64,000 nt of DNA, from the NCBI RefSeq assembly GCF_900129025.1, contig NZ_FQUM01000009.1:1-64000 (forward strand). The letters run 5' to 3'. The position numbers and the translations under genes are program-made. The stretch is from Mariniphaga anaerophila. Lineage in GTDB: Bacteria; Bacteroidota; Bacteroidia; Bacteroidales; Prolixibacteraceae. Positions within the stretch are counted from its first letter, which is position 1. Every line of letters begins with the position of its first letter. Below are positions 49,230 through 59,882 of this stretch, piece after piece. A model generated the notes under the pieces. That model did not search any database. It saw only the letters and a program-made list of their open reading frames with translations, and was not told the DNA's origin.

Positions 49230-50060
49230 ATGAATAATAAAAGCCTGAAAACATCTGTTCTTTTTGCAATCCGGCTGATATTTACAGGATTGGTACTTAC
49301 TCTCTGCACTTTAAGTTTAAAAGCCCAGCAAGACACCATAGTGCCTGTAAAAAAAGATCCAGAAAAAATTCTGAGAAAAACCAACATTCGAAACTTTACC
49401 CACAATGGGTTTAACTTTTGGTACGACAAATTTTCCGGCCACTGGGCAGGAATAGATTTCGGATTTAACATGCTTGTTAATCCCGATTACACCGGTTACT
49501 CGTCGGAATTTATGGAAAACGATGTTTTTCGTTCCAATACAACCTATCTGAATATTATCCAACAAAGTATCGGACTTCAGAAAAACCGAAATACCATTGG
49601 TTTGGTAACAGGATTAGGCCTGCAATTAAAAAGCTACCGGCTTGAACGAAATACCACCATTCAACGGCTCGACAACGGAAGGATTGAACCCCAAACGCTT
49701 TACTTTGATCACAATCAGAAATCGAAACTGTCGGTGGTATCAATTGTTGTTCCCCTGCTTGCCGAATTTCAAATACCGGTAAACCACTACAAAAACAGGC
49801 TGTTTATTTCCGGTGGCGCTTACGGCGGAATAAGAATTGACAGTCATACAAAAATAAAATACCGCGCCGACGGAAAAAAAGAAAAGCTGAAAACCCCGGG
49901 GCATTACTCTCTTCAGGACTTTAGTTACGGATTAATGATAAGAACAGGATACCGTTGGATTAACCTTTTTGCAACCTACGATTTGGTTCCACTTTTTAAA
50001 GAGGACAAAGGACCGGAACTCACTCCGGTAACATTTGGAATAACACTAATCAGTTTTTAA
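49230..50060 (+). CDS. Outer-membrane beta-barrel protein, paralogue of the ECF-operon barrel
   Basis: 276 residues with a signal peptide (IFTGLVLTLCTLSLKAQQ). The mature part follows the same pattern as the protein at 58953-59882: HWAGIDFGFNM, GLVTGLGLQ, LFISGGAYGGIRIDSHTKIK and a terminal LFKEDKGPELTPVTFGI. These are repeated amphipathic strands of a PorT/OmpW-like barrel. It lacks the hydrophilic N-terminal repeats of the paralogue. The function is unknown. It is followed after 9 bp by the creatininase-family gene, so the two are likely co-transcribed. Confidence 0.85.
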   Translation: MNNKSLKTSVLFAIRLIFTGLVLTLCTLSLKAQQDTIVPVKKDPEKILRKTNIRNFTHNGFNFWYDKFSGHWAGIDFGFNMLVNPDYTGYSSEFMENDVFRSNTTYLNIIQQSIGLQKNRNTIGLVTGLGLQLKSYRLERNTTIQRLDNGRIEPQTLYFDHNQKSKLSVVSIVVPLLAEFQIPVNHYKNRLFISGGAYGGIRIDSHTKIKYRADGKKEKLKTPGHYSLQDFSYGLMIRTGYRWINLFATYDLVPLFKEDKGPELTPVTFGITLISF

Positions 50061-50069
50061 AATAACGAT

Positions 50070-50837
50070 ATGAGGCCTTACATTTTAGAAGAAACCAACT
50101 GGAAACAGGTAAAAAACCAAAAATATGATGTGGCAGTGCTCCCCTGGGGCGCCACCGAACCACACAACTATCACCTCCCCTTTGGCACCGACTCGCTCGA
50201 AACCAAATGCATTGCAGCCGAAGCCGCCGAAAAAGCATGGAACAAAGGGGCCAAAGTAATGGTGTTGCCAACCATTCCGCTGGGCGTACAAAACCCCGGG
50301 CAGGTTGAAATGCCGTTTTGTCTTCACACGCCCCCGTCAACCCAGCTAATTATTTTGGAAGATATTGTAAGGGCACTTTTTAACCAGGGCATCAAAAAGC
50401 TGGTTATTATGAACGGCCACGGCGGAAATGACTTCAAACCACTGATTCGCGAAACGCTGGCTAAGTTTCCGGGTATGTTTATTGCCCTGAGCGAATGGTT
50501 TCGGCTGTTTCCCAATTCTGATTTTTTTGAAGAAGAGGGCGACCATGCCAACGAAATGGAGACCAGCGTTATTATGCACTATTTTCCGGAACTGGTACTG
50601 CCGCTGAACGAAGCCGGAGACGGAAAGGCAAAAAAATTCAAACTTAAAGGGCTGGCCGATAAAACTGCCTGGACACCGCGCCAATGGGATAAAGTAACTG
50701 AAGATACCGGCGTGGGAAACCCCAAAAAGTCTACTGCAGAAAAAGGAAAAATTTTTCTGGAAGCAGTAACCGACCGAATTGGAGATTTTCTGGCAGAACT
50801 GGCAGAATGCAACCCCGAAGATTTGTATTCGGAATAA
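50070..50837 (+). CDS. Creatininase-family amidohydrolase
   Basis: 255 residues, typical length. Metal-site motifs are LPWGATEPHNYHLPFGTDS, with the Glu and His ligands and an Asp, then MNGHGGNDFKPLIRE and GDHANEMETSVIMHYFP. Members include creatinine amidohydrolase and the formamide hydrolase of riboflavin/F420 pathways, and the real substrate here is not visible. The enzyme is cytoplasmic and zinc- or manganese-dependent. It sits 9 bp after the beta-barrel gene and 73 bp before pepE. Confidence 0.92.
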   Translation: MRPYILEETNWKQVKNQKYDVAVLPWGATEPHNYHLPFGTDSLETKCIAAEAAEKAWNKGAKVMVLPTIPLGVQNPGQVEMPFCLHTPPSTQLIILEDIVRALFNQGIKKLVIMNGHGGNDFKPLIRETLAKFPGMFIALSEWFRLFPNSDFFEEEGDHANEMETSVIMHYFPELVLPLNEAGDGKAKKFKLKGLADKTAWTPRQWDKVTEDTGVGNPKKSTAEKGKIFLEAVTDRIGDFLAELAECNPEDLYSE

Positions 50838-50910
50838 AATAAAAACCAATAATTATCATTTCCTAAGCAGTGAATTTTTCTGTAATTGCAGCGAAATAAA
50901 AAGGAGAAAC

Positions 50911-51627
50911 ATGAAACTTTTACTGATTAGCAACTCAACCATGGCAGGGGAACCCTATTTGGATTACCCAAAATATGAAATCCAAAAATTTCTGGGAGAA
51001 AAACCGGTTACAGCACTATTTATTCCTTTTGCAGCCGTCACTTTTTCGTTCGACGATTATTGCGCAAAAGTAGAAGAACGCTTTGCCGAGGTTGGCCATC
51101 ACATTGTCGGGATTCACACGTTTTCAGACCCGATAAAAGCCATAGAAGATGCTGAAGCAATTGTGGTTGGCGGAGGAAATACCTGGCAACTGGTGCGCAT
51201 GATGCACGATCAAAAACTGATGAACCCGATTCGTGAAAAAGTATTTAACGAAACTCCATATATTGGCTGGAGCGCCGGCTCAAATGTAGCCTGCCCCACG
51301 CTCCGCACAACCAACGACATGCCCATTGTTGACCCTCACGGTTTCGAATGCATTGGCCTGGTGCCTTTTCAGATAAACCCGCACTACCTCGATGCCAATG
51401 CCGAAGGCCATGCCGGGGAAACACGCGAACAACGTATTGAAGAGTTTATTGAAGTAAACCCGAATTTATACGTGGTTGGGCTACGGGAAGGCTCCATACT
51501 GAAACTGGAAGATGAAAAGCTGGAGTTAATTGGCGATCGTATGTGCCGCATATTTAAAAAAGGAGAAAAACCGATGGAAGTCACCCGCGAAAGCGATTTC
51601 AGTTTTTTGATAAAAAACGGCTTTTAA
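50911..51627 (+). CDS. pepE: Dipeptidase E (peptidase S51)
   Basis: 238 residues from ATG 50911, which has AAAGGAG 5 bp upstream, a rarely clear ribosome site for this organism. A longer in-frame reading from 50779 overlaps the preceding gene and is rejected. The nucleophile Ser lies in YIGWSAGSNVACPT. EAIVVGGGNTWQLVRMM and the His in IPFQINPHYLD-type context complete the family pattern. PepE splits dipeptides with N-terminal Asp in the cytoplasm, fitting use of imported peptides. Confidence 0.95.
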   Translation: MKLLLISNSTMAGEPYLDYPKYEIQKFLGEKPVTALFIPFAAVTFSFDDYCAKVEERFAEVGHHIVGIHTFSDPIKAIEDAEAIVVGGGNTWQLVRMMHDQKLMNPIREKVFNETPYIGWSAGSNVACPTLRTTNDMPIVDPHGFECIGLVPFQINPHYLDANAEGHAGETREQRIEEFIEVNPNLYVVGLREGSILKLEDEKLELIGDRMCRIFKKGEKPMEVTRESDFSFLIKNGF

Positions 51628-56091: not shown

Positions 56092-57111
56092 ATGGAAAAC
56101 ATTGAGTGGCAAAACTTGGGATTCGGTTACCGTAAAACCGATTACAATATCCGCTGTTATTACCGCAACGGAGAGTGGGGCGAGCTTGAAACCAGTTCGT
56201 CAGACATCATAAACCTGCACATGGCAGCCACTGCGCTCCATTACGGGCAGGAAGCCTTTGAAGGACTGAAAGCGTTCAAAGGAAAAGACGGTAAAATTAG
56301 GGTTTTCAGAATGGATGAAAACGCCAAACGCCTGCAGAATTCCTGCGACGGAATTTTAATGCCTCAGCTTCCGGTGGAAAAATTTATGGAAGCAGTAAGA
56401 ATGGCCATTAAAATGAATAAACATTTTGTTCCGCCTTACGAAAGCGGCGCTGCACTGTACATTCGTCCGTTACTGATTGGCACAGGCCCGCAAATTGGCG
56501 TTAAGGCTGCCGACGAATTTTTGTTCATCGTATTTGTAATGCCCGTTGGCCCTTACTTCCCTGAAGGTTTTAAACCAACCGACCTGGTAATTATTCGCGG
56601 ACAGGATCGTGCCGCACCGCAGGGAACAGGCAAGTACAAAGTAGGTGGAAATTACGCCGCCAGCATGGGCGCCGGTAAACTGGCCAAGAAAAAAGGCTTT
56701 TCGGCCGTGCTTTACCTCGACAGCAAAGAGAAAAAATACATCGACGAATGCGGCCCTGCCAACTTCTTCGGAATAAAAAATAAAACATACGTTACCCCGC
56801 TTTCCGAATCAATTCTGCCTTCTATTACCAACAAAAGCTTGATGATGCTGGCCGAAGAACTGGGATTGAAAGTGGAACGCAGAAAGGTACCTTACGAAGA
56901 ACTGGCTACTTTTGAAGAAGTAGGTGCTTGTGGTACCGCAGCCGTTATTTCTCCGGTAAAAGGTGTTTACGATGCCGACAACGACAAATGGTTTAAATAC
57001 GGCGATCAGAAAGAAGCCGGCGAATGGTCAACCAAATTATACAACAAACTGCGCTCAATACAATACGGCGATGAGCCCGACAAATTTAAATGGGTGGAAG
57101 TTGTCGAATAA
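56092..57111 (+). CDS. ilvE: Branched-chain amino acid aminotransferase
   Basis: 339 residues. A fold-type IV PLP enzyme: the substrate-side ALHYGQEAFEGLKAFKG, the Schiff-base Lys in GTGKYKVGGNYAAS, and the signature EKKYIDECGPANFFG. It exchanges amino groups between Leu/Ile/Val and 2-oxoglutarate in the cytoplasm. It is monocistronic, with a rho-independent terminator 36 bp downstream. A near-consensus -7 box (TTTCTTTG, about 56030) lies about 55 bp upstream. Confidence 0.96.
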   Translation: MENIEWQNLGFGYRKTDYNIRCYYRNGEWGELETSSSDIINLHMAATALHYGQEAFEGLKAFKGKDGKIRVFRMDENAKRLQNSCDGILMPQLPVEKFMEAVRMAIKMNKHFVPPYESGAALYIRPLLIGTGPQIGVKAADEFLFIVFVMPVGPYFPEGFKPTDLVIIRGQDRAAPQGTGKYKVGGNYAASMGAGKLAKKKGFSAVLYLDSKEKKYIDECGPANFFGIKNKTYVTPLSESILPSITNKSLMMLAEELGLKVERRKVPYEELATFEEVGACGTAAVISPVKGVYDADNDKWFKYGDQKEAGEWSTKLYNKLRSIQYGDEPDKFKWVEVVE

Positions 57112-57146
57112 ACCCACAGTTTTCGACACGTTGAAATAATATTTAA

Positions 57147-57175
57147 AAGCTTCGGTAAACCCGGAGCTTTTTTTT
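57147..57175 (+). terminator. Rho-independent terminator of ilvE
   Basis: AAGCTTCGG and CCGGAGCTT form a 9-bp stem with one T-G pair and a 5-base loop, followed by eight T residues in total. Confidence 0.9.
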
Positions 57176-57180
57176 GGTTA

Positions 57181-57210
57181 ATTCTGTAACATCCGGGGCA
57201 CTCGTTCGTC
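57181..57210 (+). promoter_or_regulatory. Putative ECF-type promoter of the sigma/anti-sigma operon
   Basis: ATTCTGTAAC at 57181-57190, a 16-bp gap, then CGTC at 57207-57210. The same ATTCTGTAAC with CGTC 17 bp later precedes the beta-barrel gene at 58953. GTAAC -35 and CGTC -10 elements are classical for ECF sigma factors, so the encoded sigma factor probably transcribes its own operon. Confidence 0.6.
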
Positions 57211-57241
57211 ATATGCTATGAACAATGTTCGCAAATAGCCA

Positions 57242-57727
57242 ATGACAGTAAACGAATACAACGAGGCAATCGACTTATACTCTGACAGTCTGTACCGGTT
57301 TGTGCTGAAAAGCATAAGAGACACGTACACGACTGAAGACATTGTACAGGACAGCTACGAAAAACTATGGAAAAACATTGAAAATGTTGATGGCGCAAAA
57401 GTAAAAGCGTACTTGTTTACCACTGCCTATCATACCATGATAGACCGTATTCGCAAAGAAAAACGTTCTGCTTACACAGAAGACCTCAACCTGCCCGAAG
57501 AAGGCCGGGAAAACAATTACAGCGACCTGGGTGAGGTTTTAAAAGAAGCCGTAACCCGGTTGCCCGAAATTCAGCGAATGGTTCTGCTGTTGCGCGATTA
57601 CGAAGGATACTCGTACGCAGAAATCGGAAAACTGACCAATTTAAACGAATCGCAGGTAAAAGTCTACATTTATCGTGCGAGGGTATTTTTAAAGAATTAT
57701 ATTGGTAAAATGGAAACGGTGGTTTAA
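57242..57727 (+). CDS. ECF RNA polymerase sigma factor
   Basis: 161 residues. Region 2 includes LYSDSLYRFVLKSIRDTYTT and EDIVQDSYEKLWKNIENV. Region 4 includes LPEIQRMVLLLRDYEGYSYA followed by EIGKLTNLNESQVKVYIYRA. It is not of the FecI/SusC-linked kind; its partners are the membrane protein starting 1 bp after its stop codon and the outer-membrane barrel at 58953. Two matching ECF-like promoters bracket the unit, suggesting a small self-activated envelope response. Confidence 0.94.
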   Translation: MTVNEYNEAIDLYSDSLYRFVLKSIRDTYTTEDIVQDSYEKLWKNIENVDGAKVKAYLFTTAYHTMIDRIRKEKRSAYTEDLNLPEEGRENNYSDLGEVLKEAVTRLPEIQRMVLLLRDYEGYSYAEIGKLTNLNESQVKVYIYRARVFLKNYIGKMETVV

Positions 57728-57728
57728 A

Positions 57729-58775
57729 ATGAAGATTACGAGAAATAATTACGAAGAATACTTTCTGGATTATCTGGAAGGTGAACTGGAAGAAACACTG
57801 GTGGATGATTTTATTGATTTCCTCCGGCAAAACCCCGATCTAAAAGCCGAGCTGGAAATGGTAGCTCCCATAAAAGTTGAAATGGAAAATATTTCCTTTA
57901 AAGGAAAAGAGAAGCTTTACAAAGAAAAATACGACCTAAAAGCAGAATTCGACCATGCAGCAGTTGCCCGCATGGAAGGGGATCTCTCTGAAAAAGATGA
58001 AAAAGAATTCCGGAACTACCTCGCAAAACATCCTGAAAAACAAAAAGAAGCATCCCTTTTTGAAAAGACAAAACTAAAAGCCGACCAATCTATTATTTTC
58101 AGCAAGAAAAAAAGACTCTATCATCGCTCGGGCGGAAAAACAATTTTGCTCTGGGCAACCAGAATTGCTGCGGTTCTCATCCTGGCATTTATTGCGTACC
58201 ATGCAACCGACTTCATTTCCACAGAAAATATTATTCCTGAAAACCAGATTGCAGTTTCGCAAAATGAGACAAACACCGGGCAGGAAAAACCTGTTGCCCA
58301 AAAAGAAACTGAAAAAGAAAAACCGGAAGAACAGGATAAAAACAAAACCACAGAACCTGTAAAAAAAGCAAAGACCAAAACAGAGCCTGTAAAAAGCCTG
58401 CGCGAAAACACAAAAGGACGAATGGAGCACGAAAAAATTGCAGAAGCCCGCATGCCGGTTGAAATCCCCGAAAAACTATCGGGACTAAATGCATCGCTTA
58501 CTGTTCTGCAACCAAATGTTGGTCTGGCTCAAACAAAAACCGTTATTAACGAAGCTCCGGCAAAGTTTGACGACGAGCGCCTGCTGGCAGAAACAATCCG
58601 GGAAAAAACCGGAATTGGCAATCTATCGCTGAACAAAGTAGCCAAAGCCGGACTCACTCTGGTTTCCAATGTTTCTAACGAAAAATTCAGTTACCAGACA
58701 AACTCCAGAGGAGAAATCACCGAATTAAATTACGACTCACGTCTGCTGGCCTTTTCCATTCCTACAAAAAACTAA
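57729..58775 (+). CDS. Membrane anti-sigma-factor-like protein
   Basis: 348 residues from ATG 57729, 1 bp after the sigma stop codon; an in-frame start at 57702 lies inside the sigma gene. The cytoplasmic part has two copies of a short helical motif, YFLDYLEGELEETLVDDFID (11-30) and AVARMEGDLSEKDEKEFRNY (78-97). Each is followed by a segment like FLRQNPDLKAEL, a pattern common in Bacteroidota anti-sigma proteins without a zinc site. One membrane helix lies at about 138-157. The exported part starts with a Lys/Glu-rich low-complexity stretch (about 175-235) and ends in a folded tail. It is the likely anti-sigma factor of the preceding gene. Confidence 0.85.
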   Translation: MKITRNNYEEYFLDYLEGELEETLVDDFIDFLRQNPDLKAELEMVAPIKVEMENISFKGKEKLYKEKYDLKAEFDHAAVARMEGDLSEKDEKEFRNYLAKHPEKQKEASLFEKTKLKADQSIIFSKKKRLYHRSGGKTILLWATRIAAVLILAFIAYHATDFISTENIIPENQIAVSQNETNTGQEKPVAQKETEKEKPEEQDKNKTTEPVKKAKTKTEPVKSLRENTKGRMEHEKIAEARMPVEIPEKLSGLNASLTVLQPNVGLAQTKTVINEAPAKFDDERLLAETIREKTGIGNLSLNKVAKAGLTLVSNVSNEKFSYQTNSRGEITELNYDSRLLAFSIPTKN

Positions 58776-58890
58776 CAGTCGTCTGCACCCTCGTAAATCA
58801 CCGATAAAAATTGATGATTGACTTCACGATGTATTTCCTGTTGCATATCCCGAAGTTATTGTCCACACTTTTTCAGAATTAAATTTTCAT

Positions 58891-58921
58891 ATTCTGTAAC
58901 TTTCTATTACCTCTGCCCGTC
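58891..58921 (+). promoter_or_regulatory. Putative ECF-type promoter of the beta-barrel gene
   Basis: ATTCTGTAAC at 58891-58900, a 17-bp gap, then CGTC at 58918-58921, matching the promoter upstream of the sigma gene. A partly overlapping TAACTTTC (58897-58904) differs from the housekeeping -7 box at one base, so dual use is possible. Confidence 0.6.
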
Positions 58922-58952
58922 TGAATAGCAAAACGTTTAAAAACAGAAAAAA

Positions 58953-59882
58953 ATGAAACAATTAATCAGCTTCGTTTTATGCAGCATACTGGCCATGAAT
59001 CTTTTTGCACAATCTGACACAACAAAAGTTAAGATTGCAAAGAAAAACGTTGTAACCGTTGTTGAAGATGGAAAAACCACACACGTAAAAGTTGGCAACG
59101 ACCGCGGAGTGGAGGTTCTTACAGATGACTGGGGAGATACAACGCATGTGCGGGTTGGCCGCCGTACATTTAAAGTTATTGACGACGGAAACGGCACTTA
59201 CGTAAAAGTGGACAAAGAAGAAAAGCAAAAAAAATGGACCGGAAGTTTTAACCCGCACTGGGCCGGGCTGGAGTTTGGAATGAACATGTACCGTCAAACA
59301 GACTATTCGTTGTACAACCATTTTGGCCCCCTGGTACCGGAAGATTTTATGGATCTGAACTACGGAAAATCCATTACCGTAAACCTGAATTTTGCCGAAT
59401 GGGCTTTTAAAAACGAAGCCAAAACCTTCGGGCTTGTTACAGGGTTGGGTTTAAGTTTTATGGATTTAACTTTTGACCAGCCGATTACCATTACAAAAGC
59501 AGGAGGTGAAGGAATTATTATGCCGGTTAGCCTGGACCCCGACGGACTAAAAAAGACCAAGCTTAGTATATCCTATCTTACGGCTCCACTACTGCTCGAA
59601 GTAAAAACACCACTGCGCATGGGAAGTTCCAGGCTGTACCTTGCCGGAGGAGTAATCGGAGGATTAAACATCGGCTCTCACACCAAATACAAATATCGTA
59701 AGGACAAAGAAAAAGCACGCAGCAACTTCAATCTCAACCAGTTTAAATACGACCTGACCGGACGAATTGGATTTGGCGACTTCTGCATTTTTGTGAACTA
59801 CGGAATGACCCCGCTTTTCAAAAGTGATCGTGGCCCCGAACTGGTGCCGGTTACCTTTGGTTTCTCATTCCCAAACATTTAA
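58953..59882 (+). CDS. Outer-membrane beta-barrel protein with N-terminal hydrophilic repeats
   Basis: 309 residues with a signal peptide (LISFVLCSILAMNLFAQ). Residues about 25-90 contain three short repeats: VVEDGKTTHVKVGN, LTDDWGDTTHVRVGR and IDDGNGTYVKVDKE. They are followed by a barrel with NPHWAGLEFGMNMY, GLVTGLGLSFM, YLAGGVIGGLNIGSHTKYKY and the end LFKSDRGPELVPVTFGFSF. It is paralogous to 49230-50060. It is third in the ECF sigma/anti-sigma cluster and has its own ECF-like promoter, so it is probably the main target or sensor of that system. Confidence 0.88.
   Translation: MKQLISFVLCSILAMNLFAQSDTTKVKIAKKNVVTVVEDGKTTHVKVGNDRGVEVLTDDWGDTTHVRVGRRTFKVIDDGNGTYVKVDKEEKQKKWTGSFNPHWAGLEFGMNMYRQTDYSLYNHFGPLVPEDFMDLNYGKSITVNLNFAEWAFKNEAKTFGLVTGLGLSFMDLTFDQPITITKAGGEGIIMPVSLDPDGLKKTKLSISYLTAPLLLEVKTPLRMGSSRLYLAGGVIGGLNIGSHTKYKYRKDKEKARSNFNLNQFKYDLTGRIGFGDFCIFVNYGMTPLFKSDRGPELVPVTFGFSFPNI

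Follow-up and report, generated by a model that had tools for sequence, protein, structure and literature searches.

The RpoE/RseA system of Enterobacteria consists of a self-regulated extracytoplasmic function (ECF) sigma factor and a membrane-bound anti-sigma factor, is linked to outer membrane proteins and controls a broad regulon. The autoregulated promoters of ECF sigma factors typically contain AAC in the -35 element and CGTC in the -10 element. A locus of related design is found in a 64,000-nucleotide stretch of Mariniphaga anaerophila DNA (contig NZ_FQUM01000009.1, positions 1 to 64,000), the whole of which is called the window below. It encodes an ECF sigma factor, a predicted anti-sigma protein and an outer membrane β-barrel protein, and matching ECF-type promoter sequences precede the sigma and barrel genes. 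Very likely, these elements form an autoregulated sigma circuit with one dedicated outer membrane barrel as its output. The locus would thus resemble RpoE/RseA in its autoregulation, membrane anti-sigma protein and outer membrane link, but it has one firm barrel target where the RpoE regulon is broad.

The Dma/Das and EcfO/Reo systems of Bacteroides and Phocaeicola offer a second comparison. According to the available portions of the reports, Dma and Reo are single chains that begin with a sigma-binding domain, cross the membrane by one helix and end, past a disordered tether, in a barrel (PMC13088901, PMC9308784, PMC13114119). Dma1 and Dma2 adjoin an ECF21 sigma gene (PMC13088901), and NigD is a known target there (PMC13088901, PMC9308784, PMC13114119). 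As in these systems, so far as those portions describe them, the sigma gene of the window stands beside a gene for a predicted anti-sigma protein with an N-terminal cytoplasmic domain, one membrane helix and a long disordered tether. An outer membrane barrel is likewise involved, and strong self-induction is proposed here from the sequence. However, the Dma and Reo anti-sigma factors themselves end in the barrel, whereas here the anti-sigma protein ends in a small module of helices and strands, and the barrel is the product of another gene, which has a predicted promoter to itself. The locus is therefore not classed as Dma.

The CirY/CirZ-spy operon of Phocaeicola vulgatus also unites an ECF sigma factor, an anti-sigma factor and one envelope protein in a single induced unit, but its third gene encodes a periplasmic Spy-like chaperone instead of a barrel, and the available part of the report describes no promoter motif (PMC13114119). 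A literature search by titles and the opening lines of abstracts, with most subscription journals outside its coverage, listed no description of the present circuit, and the papers listed for the motif included none on a Bacteroidota ECF promoter; the accessible parts of PMC8103513, PMC12596196 and PMC5378342 contain nothing on this circuit. Bacteroidota genomes encode dozens of ECF sigma factors, and promoters or regulons are known for few of them. In the present case conservation ties a promoter to its likely sigma factor and to a fixed target, which makes the circuit directly testable.

Matching putative promoters at the sigma and barrel genes

The sequence ATTCTGTAAC begins at positions 57181 and 58891, and the TGTAAC and CGTC boxes are separated by 16 and 17 bp, respectively, as the first-pass annotation of this DNA had described for the sigma and barrel genes. 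A genome scan for the bipartite motif, which it had suggested, gave just two occurrences of ATTCTGTAAC-N14-20-CGTC in the whole 5.05 Mb genome and none of the reversed-pattern control. The core TGTAACN16-17CGTC is present in the window at these two sites alone, against 0.08 matches expected, and none of 100 shuffles reached two. The ATT of ATTCTGTAAC is not kept in orthologs, unlike the consensus YTGTAACWWW followed by CGTCNNA. The A three bases after CGTC is found in 108 of 109 sigma sites and in all 64 second sites. The TAnnTTTG boxes from which the motif had been set apart did not stand out: in the form TTTG-N17-23-TAnnTTTG they gave 4 matches in the window, where 5.4 are expected by chance.

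Conservation was evaluated at 112 loci. The first set contained 40 of the 41 ortholog loci, the truncated ortholog of genome G044 being left out, although it is counted as present among the 41. The second set was drawn from the best 80 of 577 confirmed relatives and gave 72 new loci after 8 duplicates had been removed. Among these best 80, the nearest belong to Tangfeifania, Mariniphaga, Draconibacterium and Maribellus, and Marinilabilia, Labilibaculum, Marinifilum and Carboxylicivirga are also represented. Draconibacterium orientale (L133) and Mariniphaga sediminis (L129) are two of the species in which the circuit is present. GTAAC-N16/17-YGTC lies upstream of the sigma gene at 40 of the 40 loci of the first set, with CGTC in 38 of them and one site at -330. 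In the second set, the site is within 120 bp of the sigma gene at 70 of 72 loci, and the reversed pattern at none of the 72. Over all loci the count within 120 bp is 109 of 112 (missing in L069, L153 and L154), whereas first-order shuffles gave a mean of 0.10 and at most 2. The site is kept upstream of sigma orthologs down to 42% identity.

The anti-sigma gene is complete at 103 of the 112 loci, and 102 have enough downstream sequence to look for a second site. Such a site lies downstream of the anti-sigma gene at 64 of the 102 (shuffles, mean 0.23). It accompanies the barrel gene: where a barrel gene comes next the second site is present at 61 of 64 loci, and otherwise at 3 of 38. At two of these three (L169 and L177) a barrel homolog follows close behind. 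In the first set the second copy of the motif lies 1.5-1.9 kb past the sigma start, at the barrel gene, in 31 of 40 loci. Of 649 other open reading frames (ORFs), 56 have a site within 120 bp; 51 of these are in the slot 1.3-2.6 kb past the sigma start, and the five outside it are all barrel homologs at other positions.

The site also stays with barrel genes that lie away from the sigma gene. Three of four examined barrels on another contig or far from the sigma gene have it (L326, L332/L371 and L370, not L377; the remote barrels of G024 and G055 were left out of this count). Orthologous barrels carry the site upstream in 28 of 30 cases, compared with none of 13 barrel paralogs; in one of the two site-less cases (L367) the start had been wrongly extended, and the site is visible when the gene is taken as L045. 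A barrel homolog is present in 41 of 41 sigma-bearing genomes and in 9 of 19 sigma-less ones, or in 4 of 19 at E <= 1e-42, a cut-off picked after the scores were known. Because the genomes are related, Fisher p-values for this co-occurrence serve as a guide only. The conservation over 112 loci and the motif in front of remote barrels support the proposal of the first-pass annotation that the two promoters belong to one circuit. The arrangement recurs in relatives, which gives it the appearance of a genuine circuit for envelope control.

Components of the circuit

The sigma factor matches PF04542 with 49.8 bits and PF08281 with 61.4 bits, both above the cut-off. It is a short protein with regions 2 and 4 only, which places it in the ECF group (group IV). 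In a protein search at E <= 1e-34, 41 of 60 genomes contained an ortholog, the source genome of the window being one of them, and the next paralogs followed only at 1e-18. With one genome taken per family, the gene occurs in 13 of the 24 other families sampled in this order. This genome has 53 ECF-like matches, and only two of them, the sigma gene of the window and a gene called ECF2 here, have TGTAACN16-17CGTC within 300 bp upstream.

The best-scoring NCBIfam model for the sigma factor is NF058625 (the PG0214/GFO_1088 family), yet its 113.4 bits lie below the family cut-off of 130. Two other genes of this genome exceed that cut-off, and their neighbors presumably encode DUF4252 proteins. One gene of the PG0214 family in this genome (L346, G000:C32:356163) is preceded by TGTAAT-N16-CGTCTTA, in which the -10 element is identical to that of the window and the -35 element differs from TGTAAC by one base. 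This difference may help to tell Bacteroidota ECF regulons apart. In a P. gingivalis mutant, the PG0214-family member and the putative anti-sigma gene PG_0215 rise roughly 10-fold under what the authors call the HPS condition, according to the available part of the report (PMC10101095).

The sigma stop codon TAA (57725-57727) is followed after 1 bp by the ATG of the next gene (57729), so that the tight spacing noted in the first-pass annotation is real. The 348-residue product, which we infer to be an inhibitor of the sigma factor, was modelled with AlphaFold2 at a mean pLDDT of 71.9 and a pTM of 0.29; because of the latter value, the placement of its domains relative to each other is meaningless. 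The model contains tandem three-helix modules at residues 8-43 and 71-113. Plain BLAST between the two modules gave no match, and hhalign relates them with a probability of 96.9 and an E of 1.4e-10. A hydrophobic helix at about residues 135-165, judged from sequence to be a membrane helix, and a low-confidence stretch at about 170-280 lead to a C-terminal module of two helices and three strands (residues 282-345), in which pLDDT is about 83-91 from residue 301 on. By inspection of 39 aligned proteins, this module (..SRLLAFSIP) is the best-kept part beyond the N-terminal region. The anti-sigma proteins of the orthologous loci have 317-440 residues (n=103); the structure model is that of the window protein alone.

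The barrel protein was modelled with a mean pLDDT of 81.5, the blocks of the barrel reaching 75-97 and those of the head 47-70. An N-terminal signal-like helix is followed by a hydrophilic β-repeat head at residues 22-88 (nucleotides 59016-59216) and a C-terminal barrel of about 200 residues (105-307), in agreement with an earlier description of the protein as a barrel carrying hydrophilic repeats. The top Foldseek match is Ail (E 8.1e-4), followed by barrels of the OmpF and OmpA types; TM-scores to the query of 0.11-0.32 mark the resemblance as generic. No Pfam match to OMP_b-brl_2 (PF13568) was found in the window barrel up to E 1, and four distant orthologs score above its cut-off of 27 (L059, 55.7 bits; L067, 29.4; L186, 41.1; L197, 36.9). 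In these four orthologs DUF2807 (head GIN) is fused N-terminally to the barrel. Free DUF2807 genes elsewhere carry a similar promoter.

Proposed mechanism

It is possible to propose how such a circuit would work. In the resting state, the co-transcribed inner membrane protein would hold the sigma factor in the cytoplasm. An envelope signal would then release it, and the free sigma factor would recruit RNA polymerase to YTGTAACWWW-N13/14-CGTCNNA (the class-A site), which it would use in front of its own operon and of the single outer membrane barrel gene. More sigma factor and anti-sigma protein would be made, giving a fast rise together with self-limitation, and the barrel protein would be made and inserted into the outer membrane. 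The barrel may bear on the outer membrane state that is sensed. An envelope-stress or surface-sensing role, as the first-pass annotation had supposed, would be reasonable for a set of ECF sigma factor, anti-sigma protein and outer membrane barrel.

An unlikely extension is that the locus is a split form of Dma/Reo, in which the tether of the anti-sigma protein spans the periplasm and its C-terminal module docks on the periplasmic β-repeat head of the barrel. In that case the presence and state of the barrel would directly set the activity of the sigma factor, which makes exactly that barrel. Together, the two proteins would form a gauge across the envelope that includes a homeostatic loop. Communication between barrel and anti-sigma protein would also show how the one-chain Dma/Reo sensors could arise from, or split into, two proteins.

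Several observations weigh against the proposed circuit. Neither Pfam nor NCBIfam gave a match above cut-off for the anti-sigma protein, and its model has no significant Foldseek match, the sole anti-sigma factor among the matches listed being RslA at E 6.1. Three loci (L065, L071 and L072) have the barrel gene next and lack the second site. At 28 of the 38 loci without a barrel gene next there is no same-strand ORF of 150 residues within 900 bp; the contrast of 61/64 to 3/38 is softened accordingly, since the comparison loci mostly have nothing to drive. A cruder count over the second set, in which barrel starts were estimated by tblastn, placed a second site close to the barrel at no more than 27 of 38 loci. 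All conservation counts give related genomes equal weight, and these are not independent events. In pattern searches of whole genomes the core is hardly enriched: it has 25 matches in this genome, compared with 19 for the reversed control; YTGTAACN16-17CGTC has 56 in seven relatives, compared with 122; and the core has 28 in seven sigma-less genomes of the same family, compared with 69. (Of the 56 sites, 52 were viewed in context, as 30 loci and 22 sites; two further pattern counts gave 44 and 31 matches, with 20 and 17 for the reversed pattern and 30 viewed in context for each.) As these counts are near or below the control, the core alone carries little information genome-wide, and the case rests on placement and conservation. 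Finally, the core is shared with at least one other ECF gene of this genome, that of the ECF2/DUF6249 pair, so the sites might be read by a different sigma factor.

Alternative readings

It is quite possible, if somewhat short of an even prospect, that the barrel is an ordinary structural target without a part in sensing and that the signal arrives by regulated proteolysis of the anti-sigma protein, as in RpoE/RseA. Such a layout is very common among ECF systems, and the contact between barrel and anti-sigma protein is conjectural. The specificity for one barrel and the co-occurrence in 41 of 41 genomes exceed what a generic target would need, but are compatible with one.

A different possibility, plausible and on balance disfavored, is that the circuit is not local: the sigma factor would run a dispersed envelope regulon of WM-repeat, DUF2807 and 156-residue proteins and a MacB-like ABC operon, with the barrel as one target among others. 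Of the 25 core matches in the genome, 16 are within ORFs and nine are between genes, upstream of a same-strand gene; eight of the nine are 11-70 bp from the start codon, and the ninth is at 156 bp. Besides the sigma and barrel genes, the core precedes genes for two secreted WM-repeat proteins, a secreted 156-residue protein, a DUF2807 protein, the divergent ECF2 and DUF6249 pair and an ABC ATPase; it is 156 bp from the last of these and within 70 bp of the other six. (Pfam was run for six genes at dispersed sites; 'secreted' and 'ABC' were judged by sequence.) In seven relatives the motif again stands before members of these gene families, though not of every family in each relative. The WM-repeat genes have a site at 19 of 30 loci, and all 19 read CGTC[AT]TA; in sigma-less genomes the count is 0 of 2, both weak cases, as the frame of L268 is interrupted and the match of L273 is distant. 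The fusion of DUF2807 to the barrel in four distant orthologs would also fit such a regulon.

Against the dispersed regulon stands the persistence of sites in the seven sigma-less genomes of the same family: at the ECF2/DUF6249 pair in four of them, and also at one DUF2807, one ABC and one 157-residue gene. Another sigma factor, most simply ECF2, must therefore read some of the sites. The bases within the sites differ as well. After GTAAC, A or T is found in 172 of 173 class-A sites (sigma and barrel) and G in 15 of 19 WM sites. All 14 sites assigned to ECF2 or DUF6249 have C at this position, while an ECF2-like gene in the more distant genome G042 (L317) has G. The DUF2807 sites have A three bases past CGTC in only 1 of 7 cases. 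Such differences, whether directly after GTAAC or in the bases that extend the -10 element, point to a paralogous sigma factor at several of the dispersed sites, and the base after GTAAC provides a handle for sorting neighboring ECF regulons.

The assignment of all dispersed sites to the sigma factor of the window was thus abandoned, being made unsafe by the seven sigma-less genomes and the spacer bases. Given the sorting of bases and the sites in sigma-less genomes, we count only the sigma and barrel genes as the firm regulon of the proposed circuit. The WM-repeat genes are possible members, and the remaining dispersed genes are probably served by another sigma factor. The operon may be self-contained, as the first-pass annotation termed it: a hairpin upstream of the sigma promoter fits a separate unit, but the core also precedes seven dispersed genes.

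The divergent pair (L094, G000:C44:238124-238205) encodes an ECF sigma factor and a DUF6249 membrane protein, each preceded by an outward-directed TGTAACC-N15-CGTC. Pairs of this type were seen in six or more relatives, some of which lack the sigma factor of the window. The WM-repeat genes (L077, L097, L256-L285) have small products that appear to be secreted and contain repeats centered on E-x-W-M. Pfam has no match for two of these repeat proteins, and many of the family have TGTAACG..CGTC[AT]TA upstream. Three WM-repeat genes (L261, L268 and L280, of G003, G007 and G012) have stop codons in the matched frame, possibly a sign of decay.

Cell-surface signaling for iron or polysaccharide, of the FecIR or SusC type, is highly improbable. 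In Bacteroidota an ECF sigma factor with an outer membrane protein often means such a system. However, the anti-sigma protein has no FecR match in Pfam up to E 1, the barrel of only 309 residues has no TonB-receptor match, and the two flanking genes scanned with Pfam include no TonB receptor, encoding an aminotransferase and a PEMT-type methyltransferase. Signaling by FecR and TonB was dropped on this gene content, its defining parts being absent. Chance resemblance of the two boxes, for which only the genome-wide counts given above could speak, is refuted by position and conservation (two matches in the window against 0.08 expected; 109 of 112 loci) and deserves practically no credence.

Layout of the locus

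The features of the locus are collected in Table 1. The hairpin is consistent with an independent transcription unit downstream of it, and is a pattern match only, seven such matches occurring in the region against a shuffle mean of 4.3. The gene upstream of it (56092-57111) encodes the aminotransferase, assigned by Pfam to class IV. The distance from the anti-sigma gene to the barrel gene is 177 bp.

Table 1. Positions of the predicted features of the sigma/barrel locus in the window
Feature	Position	Strand	Details
Terminator-like hairpin and T run	57145..57171	+	11 pairs (5 G-C), loop of 5, then TTTT
ECF-type promoter, sigma/anti-sigma operon	57185..57210	+	TGTAAC 57185-57190, 16 bp, CGTC 57207-57210, then ATA
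ECF sigma factor, 161 aa	57242..57727	+	Sigma70_r2 and Sigma70_r4_2
Predicted membrane-anchored anti-sigma protein, 348 aa	57729..58775	+	Position, 1-bp gap, AlphaFold2 model; anti-sigma activity inferred
Conserved C-terminal module of the anti-sigma protein, ending DSRLLAFSIP	58572..58763	+	Alignment A2, 39 proteins
ECF-type promoter, barrel gene	58895..58921	+	TGTAAC 58895-58900, 17 bp, CGTC 58918-58921, then TGA
Outer membrane β-barrel protein, 309 aa	58953..59882	+	AlphaFold2, Foldseek, Pfam of fused orthologs

A paralog of the barrel is encoded in the same window. It has 276 residues and is followed by genes for proteins of 255 and 238 residues (49230-51627), which we take to resemble creatininase and peptidase S51, respectively. 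This paralog is located directly behind the sigma operon in many other genomes, and here it is 7 kb upstream. A gene of about 236 residues behind the second barrel had been considered as a DUF2807 protein, which was ruled out when Pfam identified it as peptidase S51; the gene that corresponds to the 238-residue one at L042 is a peptidase S51.

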